In this document: piece after piece, positions 5,734 through 52,554 of the stretch
Position numbering within the stretch: position 1 is the stretch's first letter
Layout of the letters: every line of letters starts with the position of its first letter
Assembly (NCBI GenBank): GCA_025060615.1
Contig: JANXBS010000003.1
Span: 172,441 to 236,440 of the forward strand
Direction: 5' to 3'
Source of the DNA: Anaerolineae bacterium
Lineage (GTDB): Bacteria > Chloroflexota > Anaerolineae > DUEN01
Length of the DNA: 64,000 bases
Made by a program: the position numbers and the translations under genes
Notes under the pieces: generated by a model
What the model saw: only the letters and a program-made list of their open reading frames with translations
What the model was told of the DNA's origin: nothing
Database searches by the model: none

Positions 5734-7077
5734 CTAAGGGTAAATGCGGTTAAGCATGCGAGGATAGGCGATGGTCTCTCGCACGTGATCAATGCCGCAG
5801 ATCCAAGCCACCACGCGCTCAATGCCTAGTCCAAAGCCGGAATGCGGCACCGAGCCATACTTGCGCAGGTCAATATACCACTCGTACGCTTCGCGCGGCA
5901 GATGATGCCTTTCAATGGCCTTCACAAGCAAGTCTGGATCGCTCATGCGTTCCGAGCCGCCGGTGATCTCCCCATATCCCTCCGGTGCCAGCAGATCCAC
6001 GCTGCGACACACCTCCGGCCGGTCAGGCTCCGGTTCCATGTAAAAGGCTTTGACCGCCGTCGGGTAGTGGTGAACGAACACGGGTTTCTCAAACTGGCTT
6101 GCGAGGAACGTCTCGTGAGGTGCGCCGAAATCATCGCCCCACGGCAGCGGCGGCAGCGGCTCGTTGTTGGGCGGGACGAGGCAGCCCTGGGCGGCAGCTT
6201 GGTTGATCAGCTCCACCGCCTCATCGTAGGAGATGCGCGGGAACGGCGGTTCCACCTTTTCCAGCCGAGATAGATCGCGCTCCAGCACCTTGAGCTCGTT
6301 TGGGCGATTGCGCAACACTGTTTGCACTACGTGGCTCACCAGTTGCTCTTCGATCTCCATCAGCTCATCGAGCTGGCAAAAGGCGATCTCCGGCTCTACC
6401 ATCCAAAACTCCTGCAGATGGCGGCGGGTCTTCGACTTCTCGGCCCGAAAGGTCGGCCCGAAACAATACACCTTGCCGAAAGCGAAGATGTTGGCCTCGT
6501 TATAAAGCTGGCCAGATTGGGTTAGATATGCCGGAATGCCATGATAATCGGTGGGAAAGAGGGTGCTCGTCCCCTCGGCAGCCGACGGCGTGAGGATGGG
6601 CGTATCTACCAAGAGGAAACCGTGATCGTCCAGCCAGTTGCGAATGGCCCGGATGATTTCGGCGCGAATGCGCAGGATGGCCCACTGGCGGCTGGAGCGA
6701 ATCCACAGGTGGCGACGGTCCAGCAAAAACTCGACGCCGTGCTCCTTGGGGGTGATCGGGTAGTCCTGCGCGAACTGAAGGACCGTCAGATCCTGAACGT
6801 CCAGCTCATAGCCCCCAGGGATGCCCGGTGCTCGCTGATCCTGGCGTACTGTACCTGTGACGATCAGCGACGACTCCTGCGTCAGCCGACGGGCGCTCTC
6901 GAAGGCCTGTGGGCTCACGTTCTTTTGAAACACCACGGCCTGCATGATGCCTGTGCCATCGCGTACCTGCAAGAACTGCAGCCGGCCTTTGTCGGTTTTG
7001 TGATACAGCCAGCCCCGGATGATCACCTCTTCGCCCACGTGCCGGGCGATGTCCTCGATTCGTACGATCCTGGCCAC
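5734..7077 (-). CDS. asnS: asparaginyl-tRNA synthetase
   Basis: Charges tRNA-Asn with asparagine; cytoplasmic class IIb synthetase. The N-terminal OB-fold anticodon-binding domain ([19 protein letters not shown]) covers about residues 1-110. The catalytic domain carries motif 2 ([21 protein letters not shown]) and motif 3 ([15 protein letters not shown]). The latter pattern and the absence of a GAD domain fit AsnRS rather than bacterial AspRS. The frame is open to a GTG at 7113, but I choose the GTG at 7077 because AGGGGG lies four bases before it and homologues begin there. It is monocistronic in appearance, with a TATAAT-type -10 upstream. Confidence 0.94.
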
Positions 7078-7133
7078 AGTACCCCCTATCTGCTCTGGCA
7101 GATCTGTCCCCACCTAGAAGCCGCTTCTTCCCG

Positions 7134-7182: not shown

Positions 7183-7938
7183 TTAAAATGAGGCTGCGGT
7201 AAGCCAATGGCCAAGCGGACGAAGTACCGCGCACAGGTTGAGGTCATCCTGACCGGCGTAGAATCTCTCAGCCACGCGCAAGCCAGCGGCCTCGGCTAGC
7301 CGATCTAGTGCCGCCGCATCAATGAACGCGCAATACCGCAGTCCGCAACCGTCTCGTTGCCAATCGAGCAGGTAATCGCCTGGCTCCACATCCTCTGGGT
7401 GTAATCCGATCAGATGCCATGGTTGCAGCCGGCGACGTAGCCGTTCGCTATGCAAGAACTGCCAGGTGGAAACGAGCACAACCCCATCAGGCGCCAGGCA
7501 TCTGGCCACCTGATGCAATAGCTCGATGCGGCGGCCCATCCCAGGGATGTGATGCAACAGGGCTAACAGGGCGATGACCTGGTATCGGCGGAGCGGCAGG
7601 TAGCTGGCCCAGTCGGGTTGCGTTACGTCCAGCACCATGAATTGCGCGAGGATAGTGGTGCATTGGAGCTGGGAGAACAGACAGCGGGCGTGCTCGATCA
7701 GCCGTGCGCTGGCATCTACCCCGATATAACGAACGCGGCGCCCCATCCGGTGCAGCGCCATCACCAGTTGGCCGTGGCCGCAACCCACATCGAGCAGCGC
7801 GCTGTCATCGGGCACATAAGCTAATAGCCGCTCTACGCCGGGAAGCGGCGCTGGCCGGCTGGCCGCGAATGCATCGGCGAACTGGTCATAAAATCGTCGG
7901 TTGAGTTGAATCAACTGTTGGGCGATTTCGGGTTTCAC
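7183..7938 (-). CDS. Trm9/ALKBH8-like class I SAM methyltransferase
   Basis: SAM-dependent methyltransferase. Motif I is LLDVGCGHGQ near residue 50, motif II-like VRYIGVDAS follows, and LLHHIP marks motif IV. Beyond the Rossmann core the protein resembles the tRNA methyltransferase Trm9: an N-terminal FYDQFADAFAASRPAPLPGV, a PGDYLLDW segment, then LRYCAFIDAAALDRLAEAAG and a C-terminal ERFYAGQDDLNLCAVL strand. Trm9 methylates the cm5U34 that Elp3 makes, and elp3 is divergent and only two bases away. The Trm9 function is inferred from these similarities and context. A generic small-molecule methyltransferase remains possible. I use the GTG at 7938 as start; the frame is open six codons further. 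No ribosome site is visible and an extended -10 (TGCTATACT) sits seven bases upstream, suggesting leaderless translation. Confidence 0.8.
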   Translation of the reverse strand: MKPEIAQQLIQLNRRFYDQFADAFAASRPAPLPGVERLLAYVPDDSALLDVGCGHGQLVMALHRMGRRVRYIGVDASARLIEHARCLFSQLQCTTILAQFMVLDVTQPDWASYLPLRRYQVIALLALLHHIPGMGRRIELLHQVARCLAPDGVVLVSTWQFLHSERLRRRLQPWHLIGLHPEDVEPGDYLLDWQRDGCGLRYCAFIDAAALDRLAEAAGLRVAERFYAGQDDLNLCAVLRPLGHWLTAASF

Positions 7939-7940
7939 AC

Positions 7941-9608
7941 ATGAAGTATAGCACAAGTGCAGATGAGCGGCTCCAACGTGTAGTGGCAGCTCAACAACGG
8001 TGGCTGAGCCGGCGCGGCCGGCCCTTTGATCTGGCCGTGCATATGGACGCGCTTTGGGCGATTATCGCTGCTATCCGAGAGGCCAACCCGTTTACCGAGC
8101 GAACCCTCTCGCTCTTACTGAATCAGCACCGACCGGCTCCCGGCCAGCACTTCACCAAGGCACAGTTGGTGCAAGCGTATCGTCATTTCGTGGCGCAAGG
8201 GAGGCTTCCATTTGAGCGGGAGATGTTACGCCGGCTCCAGATGAAGCCGGTGCGGACCGCATCAGGGGTGACGCCGGTGGCCGTGCTCACTAAGCCGGCC
8301 CCTTGCCCTGGCCAGTGCATCTTCTGTCCTACCGATGTGCGCATGCCCAAGAGCTACCTCAGCGATGAGCCGGGCGCGATGCGGGCACTCCAGAACGATT
8401 TCGACCCTTACCGCCAGGTGATGAGCCGGATCGAGAGCCTGGAGAGCATCGGCCACAGTGTAGACAAAGTGGAACTGCTCATCCTGGGCGGCACCTGGTC
8501 GGCCTATCCGCGATCGTATCAGGAATGGTTCGTCCGCCGGTGTCTCGACGCGCTCAACGGGCGCGACGCGCCTTCGCTGGAGGAGGCGTTGGCGTGGAAC
8601 GAGCACGCGCCGCGTCGCAACGTGGGGTTGGTTATCGAGACGCGGCCAGATTGGATCACGCCACAAGAAGTGATCCGGCTGCGCCGGCTGGGCGTGACCA
8701 AGGTGCAGGTGGGCGTGCAGAGCCTGGATGATCGCATCTTGGCCCTTAACAAGCGGGGGCATACCGTGGAGGAGGCGCGACGGGCTGTGCGGCTATTGCG
8801 GCTGGGCGGCTTTAAGATCCACCTGCACTGGATGCCTAACTTGCTGGGCGCGACGCCGGAATCAGATCGAGAGGACTTCGCCCGCCTGTGGGCAGATCCA
8901 GCCTTGCGCCCTGACGAGCTGAAAATCTATCCCTGCATGTTGATCGCCGAGACCGAGCTGTTCCACGAGTGGACGCGAGGGGCCTATCGTCCCTATGAGG
9001 AGGAGGAGCTGATCGAGCTGTTGATCGAGTGCAAGACGATGGTGCCGCGCTATTGCCGGCTCAACCGGGTCGTCCGCGATATCCCAGCCCAGGACATCGT
9101 AGCCGGGACCCGCACCTCAAACCTGCGCGAGGTGGTTCAGGCCCGGATGCGAGCGCGCGGTTTACGCTGTCAGTGCATCCGCTGCCGGGAGGTGCGCCAC
9201 CGTCCTGTGGCCGAGGCTGATCTCCATCTGGAAGTCCTCTCCTATGAGACAGATGCCACGGAAGAGCGATTCATCAGCTTTGTCTCGGGCGATGATCACC
9301 TGGCCGGGTTCCTACGCCTCTCGTTACCACGGTCAGAGGTGAGCCCGGAGGAGCAGCCGCAGGAGTTGCGAGGGGCTGCTGTGATCCGTGAGGTCCATGT
9401 CTATGGGCCGGCCTTGGGCATCGGGGATGATAACGCTGGAGAGGCACAACACCGAGGCCTAGGCGCACGTCTGATCGCGGAGGCAGAACGACAAGCTCGC
9501 GCGGCCGGGTATCGCCGGCTGGCCGTGATCGCCGCAGTAGGCACGCGCGGCTACTATCGCCGGTTCGGGTTCGAGTTGGGTGAGCTATATATGGCCAAGG
9601 CGGTGTAA
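7941..9608 (+). CDS. elp3: bacterial Elp3: radical SAM / acetyltransferase tRNA uridine-34 enzyme
   Basis: Elp3 builds the carboxymethyl group at C5 of wobble uridine in tRNA using acetyl-CoA and SAM. The [4Fe-4S] cysteines are C122, C126 and C129 (CPGQCIFC), followed by the Elp3-specific stretch EPGAMRALQNDFDPYRQ. The middle contains VDKVELLILGGTWSAYP, GLVIETRPDWI and VGVQSLDD, all matching eukaryotic Elp3. The C-terminal GNAT domain (about 390-555) has IREVHVYGPAL, the acetyl-CoA loop HRGLGARLIAEAE and RGYYRRFGFELGELYMAKAV. Length 555 aa is normal. The start is uncertain: the ATG at 7941 has no ribosome site. The family is known in Dehalococcoides, also Chloroflexota. The 3' end converges on the uxaA-like gene with a 9-nt gap. 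Confidence 0.93.
   Translation: MKYSTSADERLQRVVAAQQRWLSRRGRPFDLAVHMDALWAIIAAIREANPFTERTLSLLLNQHRPAPGQHFTKAQLVQAYRHFVAQGRLPFEREMLRRLQMKPVRTASGVTPVAVLTKPAPCPGQCIFCPTDVRMPKSYLSDEPGAMRALQNDFDPYRQVMSRIESLESIGHSVDKVELLILGGTWSAYPRSYQEWFVRRCLDALNGRDAPSLEEALAWNEHAPRRNVGLVIETRPDWITPQEVIRLRRLGVTKVQVGVQSLDDRILALNKRGHTVEEARRAVRLLRLGGFKIHLHWMPNLLGATPESDREDFARLWADPALRPDELKIYPCMLIAETELFHEWTRGAYRPYEEEELIELLIECKTMVPRYCRLNRVVRDIPAQDIVAGTRTSNLREVVQARMRARGLRCQCIRCREVRHRPVAEADLHLEVLSYETDATEERFISFVSGDDHLAGFLRLSLPRSEVSPEEQPQELRGAAVIREVHVYGPALGIGDDNAGEAQHRGLGARLIAEAERQARAAGYRRLAVIAAVGTRGYYRRFGFELGELYMAKAV
7945..7953 (-). promoter_or_regulatory. extended -10 promoter for leaderless methyltransferase mRNA
   Basis: TGCTATACT on the minus strand (7953-7945) is an extended -10 whose expected start falls at about 7938, the first base of the GTG codon. 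The same nine bases form the -10 regions of the ilv and gntR promoters in this window. Confidence 0.5.
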
Positions 9609-51383: not shown

Positions 51384-51411
51384 TTGACGCTTTCTTATGG
51401 CATGTTACAAT
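51384..51411 (+). promoter_or_regulatory. promoter of mnmA
   Basis: TTGACG (51384-51389), 16-nt spacer, TACAAT (51406-51411), giving a leader of about 27 nt to the ATG at 51445. Confidence 0.75.
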
Positions 51412-51444
51412 GGATTTAAAAGACTGGATCAGGTGAGCACAGCT

Positions 51445-52554
51445 ATGGCTGAGCGGATCGTGGTAGCAATGAGCGGCGGAGTGGATAGCTCGGTAGCCGC
51501 CGCGCTGTTGGTGGAACAGGGATACCAAGTCGTGGGCGTGATGTTACGCCTGTGGGCTGAGCTGCGTCCGGGGTTGTCTAGCCTCAACCGCTGCTGCTCA
51601 GACGAGGCGGTGGAGGACGCCCGTCGCGTCGCGAGCATGCTAGGCATCCCCTTCTATCTCTTGAACGTCGAACGCCTATTTAAGGAACAGGTGGTGGATC
51701 GCTTCATCGCCGGCTACACGAGCGGCGTGACCCCCAACCCTTGCTTGTACTGCAACCGTTATATCCGGTTCGATCGGCTGCTGAATTATGCGCTCAGCGT
51801 GGGAGCTGTCGCCTTGGCGACGGGGCATTACGCCCGTGTCCGGCCGGCCCCTGACGGCCATGGCTATCAACTGCTGCGGGGCGTAGACCGGGCAAAGGAT
51901 CAATCGTATGTGTTGCATGTCGTCGGCCAGAGGGAATTGGCACACCTACGCTTCCCGATCGGCCACCTGACCAAGCAGGAGGTGCGAGAGCTGGCGCGCC
52001 GATGGGGGCTGCCGATAGCTGAGAAGGCGGAATCGCAAGAGTTATGTTTTATCGCCGATGGCGATTACCGCCGCTTCCTGCAGGACTGGGCACCGGACGC
52101 GGTGCACCCAGGGCCGATCGTGGATCGCGCGGGCAATGTGTTGGGCCAGCATAAGGGGTTGCCCTTTTACACCATCGGGCAGCGAAGTGGCTTGGGCATC
52201 GCTGCCCGCGAGCCGCTATATGTGTTGGCTCTAGACCCCGAGCGCAACGCGGTCGTTGTGGGCACGCGGGACGAGCTGGGAAATGATGAGCTGACGGCCG
52301 CGCGTGTGAACTGGGTGGCAGGCGCACCGCCAGATGGCGAGATCACCGTCACCGCCCGCATCCGATATAAGGGAAGCGAAGTAGAAGCTCGAGTCCGTCC
52401 ATTGCCCGGGGAGCGGGCTCATGTTCACCTTGCTCAACCCCTACGCGACATCACACCAGGGCAGGCGGTGGTCTTTTACGAAGGAGAGGTCTGTCTGGGA
52501 GGTGGCCTTATCGAGCCGCCCAATCGCCCGCTGCCGGCATCGCTGGTGGGATAG
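51445..52554 (+). CDS. mnmA: tRNA-specific 2-thiouridylase
   Basis: Makes 2-thiouridine at U34 of Lys, Glu and Gln tRNAs. PP-loop [12 protein letters not shown] near residue 10; catalytic Cys100 in [12 protein letters not shown] and Cys201 in [24 protein letters not shown] in the central domain. C-terminal beta-barrel with ARIRYKG. 369 aa. The ATG at 51445 gives the family N-terminus [12 protein letters not shown]; a GTG four codons earlier is possible. It acts on the same base as Elp3 (7941), so the genome carries both 2-thio and carboxymethyl-type modification of U34. The next small gene starts two bases after the stop. Confidence 0.96.

Follow-up and report, generated by a model that had tools for sequence, protein, structure and literature searches.

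We analyzed a stretch of 64,000 nucleotides of contig JANXBS010000003.1 from an Anaerolineae bacterium of the phylum Chloroflexota, hereafter the window, in which elp3 and a gene for a Trm9-like methyltransferase diverge from almost adjoining start codons and form a candidate route to modified wobble uridines in tRNA (Table 1). In human cells, the two corresponding enzymes first make a mark on the tRNA anticodon and then cap it. A preliminary description made from the sequence alone had reported the two genes as divergent with two bases between their starts, and the open reading frames (ORFs) and predicted starts of the window were found as stated, the stop codons ending at 7183 for the methyltransferase and at 9608 for elp3. 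A gap of 2-3 bases likewise separates the two genes in two relatives of the same family (L004 and L002).

Table 1 Features discussed in the text. Positions are those of the window unless a locus is named; SAM, S-adenosylmethionine.
Feature	Position	Strand	Details
Trm9-like class I SAM-dependent methyltransferase gene	7183..7938	-	251 aa, GTG start
elp3, radical SAM and acetyltransferase enzyme	7941..9608	+	555 aa, ATG start
Intergenic gap of the divergent pair (predicted starts GTG 7938, ATG 7941)	7939..7940	.	Direct sequence reading
mnmA, tRNA 2-thiouridine(34) synthase	51397..52554	+	NF001138, TIGR00420; unlinked to the pair
Class II (Asp/Asn/Lys-type) tRNA synthetase with oligonucleotide-binding (OB)-fold anticodon-binding domain	5734..7113	-	Next gene past the methyltransferase
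Dehalococcoidia-type divergent methyltransferases	L137:1894-2565 and matching ORFs of L138-L140, L150-L163

The elp3 product scored above the cut-off of the NCBIfam ELP3 model (TIGR01211, E 2e-159, 531 bits versus 350) and above those of the radical SAM (PF04055), radical SAM C-terminal (PF16199), and GNAT (PF00583) domains. It also matched solved bacterial and archaeal Elp3 chains. The cluster motif CPGQCIFC is found at residue 122. E207 of M. infernus Elp3 (MinElp3) is matched by the Glu of IETRPDW, a motif that starts at residue 232, and K302 and Y304 by the Lys and Tyr of LKIYPC, which starts at residue 327; parts of a 2026 paper (PMC13315578) describe the three MinElp3 residues as essential or important. 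The catalytic residues of the window Elp3 are intact. The protein is additionally extended at its N-terminus by about 100 residues, a feature that is present in archaeal and eukaryotic Elp3 and missing from Dehalococcoides Elp3 (PMC6367351 and this study). The enzyme is a probable tRNA U34 carboxymethylase, yielding 5-carboxymethyluridine at the wobble position (cm5U34).

Kinship of the methyltransferase to Trm9

The window methyltransferase passed the cut-offs of several generic Pfam methyltransferase families and of no specific NCBIfam equivalog. Searched as a single sequence against 177,635 PDB sequences, it found Yarrowia Trm9 (5cm2_Z) as its best PDB match (E 3.4e-7, next match 1e-4). A profile of the window family, built from 29 homologues of the class, again placed 5cm2_Z first (E 7e-14), by a slim margin in E-value over the second match (2.4e-13). 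The Trm9 alignment covers residues 25-223 and runs through the C-terminal lid; among the ten best hits of the profile, the other nine end by residue 157, short of the lid. Profiles of two further groups of homologues, a Patescibacteria type and a Dehalococcoidia type, had 5cm2_Z as best match as well (E 3.5e-29, next 1.2e-23, and E 1.3e-21, next 6.5e-20, respectively). In comparisons of profiles with each other, the window family matched the Patescibacteria type at E 3e-56, three archaeal homologues at 8e-31, and Trm9 at 2e-18 (175 columns, lid included), compared to 1.6e-13 for UbiG and 6e-9 for CmoM, both over the core only, and 1.4e-7 for UbiE. With Trm9 as best PDB match and an alignment that includes the lid, the Trm9-like N- and C-terminal segments noted in the preliminary description are real. 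Judged by sequence, the closest kin of the window methyltransferase is Trm9, and the similarity spans the full domain up to and through the C-terminal lid.

Yeast Trm9 requires R29, H115, R241, Y243, and N271, as stated in a passage of PMC5372719, from which the yeast numbering is taken. When residues were mapped by motif order, with the position of Y243 inferred, the window equivalents of R29, H115, R241, and N271 were R28, the pair H129/H130, R201, and N234; W159 also aligns with residues of Trm9 and the archaeal proteins. Within the 29-member window family, R28, H130, W159, and R201 are invariant and the H129 position is His in 27 members. At the position of yeast Y243, six of seven Dehalococcoidia-type sequences have Tyr, as do all three archaeal sequences and that of Yarrowia. 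The yeast-like motif RYYH occurs in most Dehalococcoidia-type and many Patescibacteria-type partners. In the AlphaFold model of the window methyltransferase (predicted local distance difference test score of 95), a two-strand hairpin (188-193 and 199-204) lies where the Trm9 lid is expected.

Linkage to elp3 and exclusion of MnmE and MnmG

In order to survey the gene pair, we used 120 genomes of the window's class (class sample) and 201 genomes of the phylum (phylum sample). Class orthologues of the methyltransferase were called at E <= 1e-30, a cut-off chosen after a gap between 1.2e-30 and 2e-13 had been seen; at E 0.001, 102 of the 120 genomes match, mostly through generic methyltransferases. 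A strong orthologue was found in 48 class genomes and full Elp3 in 55. Elp3 was present in all 48 genomes with the methyltransferase, even where the genes are apart: the two are divergent neighbours in 39, neighbours in any other orientation in none, and separate in nine. The phylum sample contained the window-type methyltransferase in 19 genomes, all with Elp3, out of 38 Elp3 genomes in total. The other 19 include 18 from other classes, for which we use the label Dehalococcoidia-type. Counted from the Elp3 genomes, all 18 carry a distinct Trm9-like methyltransferase that is divergent from and adjoins elp3; it was seen from the elp3 flanks, as the window-type profile misses it at E 1e-20. The only one of these 19 genomes without a methyltransferase beside elp3 is G009. 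All four Dehalococcoidia-type Elp3 proteins examined in detail have a short N-terminus, and one is a near-identical match to the D. mccartyi Elp3 of crystal structure 5l7j. Dehalococcoides elp3, too, was thus found to have a divergent Trm9-like neighbour.

The arrangement also recurred at 80 loci from named genomes, which comprise Anaerolineae, Deltaproteobacteria, many Patescibacteria, Fermentibacteria, Ignavibacteriales, and an Acidobacteriota bin. Elp3 is divergent and upstream at 52 of these loci (49 within 720 bases and three at 2.3-3.5 kb) and in another orientation at none; at the remaining 28 it was not found in the fetched stretch, which was cut short in three cases. Locus L033 and G032:C425 seem to be one contig, so the sets overlap slightly. 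Fifty of the 80 genomes, from other bacteria and archaea, were searched whole, and Elp3 was found in 48 of them. Conservation across Chloroflexota, proposed as a check in the preliminary description, is thus evident from the class sample (39/48) and the Dehalococcoidia-type genomes (18/18), and it extends beyond the phylum (52/80 loci). The pairing of elp3 with the methyltransferase is far beyond chance.

The canonical bacterial pathway to C5-modified uridine 34 (xm5U34) consists of MnmE, MnmG, and MnmC. In the class sample, MnmG was over the cut-off in 40 genomes, MnmE in 43, and either of them in 45, and none of the 120 genomes combined MnmE or MnmG with Elp3. Neither system was over the cut-off in 20 genomes (e.g. 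G003, G010, G041, and G099), and MnmA was over it in 117. Counted by family (47 in total), 18 have Elp3 with its partner, three Elp3 only, 21 MnmE or MnmG, five neither, and none both. Fisher tests of the main contrasts gave p-values of 1e-17 and smaller, which overstate the case because they treat relatives as independent. Outside the class, MnmG was over the cut-off in two of the 50 genomes; an Omnitrophota genome (L062, G132) has MnmG together with a Trm9-like methyltransferase of the Patescibacteria type and no Elp3 over the cut-off. The exclusion of MnmE and MnmG by Elp3 in the class sample makes the finding much wider than the window's genome. The MnmA encoded in the window is itself above both of its model cut-offs (NF001138, E 5e-129; TIGR00420, 355 bits).

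For phylogenetic analysis, the methyltransferases of the window (C), Patescibacteria (B), and Dehalococcoidia (D) types were combined with other sequences in trees of hand-picked rows (77 and 41 of 117 sequences, then 44 of 124). In the 44-row tree, the Elp3-linked methyltransferases share one side of a branch (support 93/79) with archaeal and yeast Trm9, and ten other methyltransferases including CmoM lie on the other side; this grouping appeared once the Dehalococcoidia branch had been added to the rows. Types C and B group together (95/94, starred), and type D groups with archaeal and yeast Trm9 (90/76). A place among quinone methyltransferases, which the preliminary description had named as counting against its interpretation, was not found in this tree, and forcing the window branch together with UbiG and UbiE was rejected (approximately unbiased test, p-AU 0.021). 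The Elp3 tree contains a group with support of 100 that includes all 28 sampled Elp3s with a window-type partner and spans Chloroflexota, Deltaproteobacteria, Pacebacteria, and Dojkabacteria. The matching methyltransferase group has a support of 96 in the 77-row and 100/100 in the 44-row tree; the two trees hence agree on the C-type group across phyla. Seven partnerless Elp3s are nested inside the paired group, suggesting that the partner was lost there. The Dehalococcoidia Elp3s form a separate group, also with support of 100.

A candidate two-step pathway and its alternatives

Taken together, these data make it very probable that the two genes encode a bacterial two-step wobble-uridine pathway from cm5U34 to 5-methoxycarbonylmethyluridine (mcm5U34), which replaces MnmE and MnmG. 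Elp3 would carboxymethylate U34 in a radical SAM reaction that draws on acetyl-CoA, and its divergent partner, as an enzyme of a bacterial Trm9 branch, would transfer the methyl group of SAM to the carboxylate to form the methyl ester. MnmA of the same window could add sulfur, giving the 2-thiolated derivative mcm5s2U34. In this class, the route via Elp3 and its partner would take the place of MnmE-MnmG. Support for the first step comes from the intact residues and from what is established about the chemistry of archaeal Elp3; for the second, it comes from linkage, kinship, and residues. The methyltransferase is accordingly best described as a putative tRNA cm5U34 carboxyl methyltransferase, with cm5U34 as its presumed substrate, mcm5U34 as its presumed product, and an action that may be free of Trm112. 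The results support the interpretation given in the preliminary description, which was essentially right.

The window pair can be compared to several known systems. With eukaryotic Trm9-Trm112 (yeast, and the methyltransferase domain of animal ALKBH8), it shares the class I fold, the TR motif, the HH pair, the lid Arg, the C-terminal Asn, and the presumed role of a partner step after Elp3, and Trm9 is the closest solved sequence; in contrast, the window enzyme is bacterial, is encoded divergently to elp3, and has a Cys at the 243-like position, and its gene shows no association with Trm112 among the class genomes. Archaeal Elp3-Trm9 (Haloferax, Sulfolobus) likewise has Elp3 alone without Elongator partners, and passages in PMC2584109 and PMC5372719 place elp3 and trm9 in a cluster in S. 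solfataricus. The window pair differs from it in being bacterial, in belonging to a separate branch, and in having MnmA as the likely thiolase, whereas archaea use the Tuc1/NcsA type. DmcElp3 of Dehalococcoides mccartyi is also a bacterial Elp3 with a divergent Trm9-like neighbour, but the window Elp3 is of another lineage, DmcElp3 has the short N-terminus, and its methyltransferase is on the D-type branch. MnmE-MnmG-MnmC also modifies C5 of U34 in bacteria, although its enzymes and chemistry are unrelated and none of the Elp3 genomes among the 120 of the class has MnmE or MnmG. CmoM, the E. coli cmo5U34 methyltransferase, makes a methyl ester on the side chain of U34. It is a class I enzyme like the window methyltransferase and matches its fold (Z 19.5), but its profile match is much weaker and limited to the core, and it is placed among the outgroups.

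Several observations weigh against the two-step pathway. The partner orthologue is lacking in seven of the 55 class genomes with Elp3, and two of the 50 genomes searched whole have a related methyltransferase but no Elp3 over the cut-off, one of them with MnmG. An Ignavibacteriales genome (L063, G133) contains Elp3, its partner, and a full MnmG, an exception which shows that the exclusion does not hold everywhere. Regarding the residues, the N234 position is Asn in 22 and Ser in seven of the 29 window-family members, and the position of yeast Y243 is Cys203 in the window and Cys, Val, or Ala in all 29; the Y243 equivalent is a functional residue and not a family-defining one. In the trees, the deep support of 93/79 is below the starred level and not conclusive. 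The quick 77-row tree let UbiG and other long outgroup branches fall beside the window group; the careful 41-row tree left the branches of the Trm9-like methyltransferases apart but did not reject a single clade for them (p 0.53). In the fold comparison suggested in the preliminary description, Trm9 ranked sixth by E-value in Foldseek and had the top target-normalised TM-score in the list (0.80), yet fold alone does not single it out: METTL6 and many small-molecule methyltransferases equal or outrank Trm9. VIA-align lists METTL6 as top match and many others at Z 19-22, with no Trm9 row among the best 50 matches listed. As the listing covers 50 rows, fold similarity was not used as an arbiter.

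The most probable alternative is a variant compatible with the two-step pathway, in which the methyltransferase depends on Trm112 and works only as a heterodimer with it, as Trm9 does in eukaryotes and archaea. The preliminary description had seen no Trm112-like gene in the window, and both Trm112 matches of the genome indeed lie outside it. The genome search it proposed revealed a Trm112-like protein of 80 aa that passes the Pfam cut-off and would be the second subunit; its gene stands alone at another place of the contig (L031:1489-1731). Trm112 matches are found in 42 of the 48 class genomes with the methyltransferase, but they are equally common without it (61 of 72, p 0.79) and absent from six genomes that have it. 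In the 50 other genomes, Trm112 was over the cut-off in only eight compared to 48 for Elp3, a count that the short model may lower by missing diverged forms. We consider such a heterodimer rather unlikely. Given the lack of association, Trm112 was rejected as a diagnostic partner of the methyltransferase and may not be the partner at all: either the bacterial enzymes would be independent of Trm112, or a diverged Trm112 would have been missed by the Pfam model of 40 positions.

It is improbable that the enzyme methylates the product of Elp3, or the same tRNAs, at another position or atom, with cm5U or another derivative as the end product. Linkage and co-occurrence indicate a shared process and not the exact atom, which suits this alternative, as do the Cys at the Y243-like position and the top VIA-align rank of METTL6, an enzyme that methylates tRNA at another position. 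Against it stand the sequence kinship to Trm9 through the lid, which bears the substrate-binding Arg, and the RYYH motif of the other partner types. It is very improbable that the gene encodes a small-molecule or quinone methyltransferase and adjoins elp3 by chance or for shared regulation. The generic family matches and the early tree with UbiG could point to this reading; against it stand the rejected grouping with UbiG and UbiE, the divergent pairing across phyla, and the presence of Elp3 even in those class genomes where the genes are apart.

Our search, which covered titles and opening parts of abstracts in the open-access literature, yielded neither a bacterial Trm9 nor bacterial mcm5U. 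A passage in PMC5372719 states that such genes are undetectable in bacteria, the parts of PMC7663514 concerned describe Elp3 in one bacterial clade with nucleosides lacking direct evidence, and a section of PMC7694415 does not assign mcm5s2U to bacteria and treats archaeal Trm9-Trm112 as known. The chances appear evenly balanced that mcm5U and mcm5s2U are nevertheless widespread in bacteria, with a divergent elp3-trm9 cassette in Chloroflexota including Dehalococcoides, in Patescibacteria, and in scattered phyla that replaces MnmE-MnmG wholesale, usually without Trm112, and with a Dehalococcoidia branch that is sister to archaeal and eukaryotic Trm9. If so, the "eukaryotic" wobble pathway would have a counterpart in bacteria that is either ancient or has been shared repeatedly, and a tRNA mark thought to be absent from bacteria may be common among them. 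The data predict which bacteria make mcm5U. Moreover, they may offer a model system of single-subunit Elp3 and Trm9 that is perhaps easier to handle than Elongator, and the complete exchange of MnmE/MnmG for Elp3/Trm9 as a U34 pathway would become testable.

Start region of the pair and other elp3 loci

An alternative start of the methyltransferase gene, TTG at 7956, would make it overlap elp3. A scan of the gap region for a sigma-70 consensus promoter gave no match. A TATACT hexamer is present on the minus strand at 7945-7950, within the elp3 coding sequence and six bases upstream of the GTG of the methyltransferase gene, a distance that would fit a leaderless methyltransferase transcript.

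Two further observations concern elp3 in other genomes. In family f10, the partnerless elp3 has a gene of the histidine phosphatase superfamily directly upstream in the same direction (L130:846-2600, L131:2332-2967). In G134, a broken second copy of the Elp3 C-terminal part, with two TGA and one TAA codons inside (C4:67395-67769), is located near an intact elp3.

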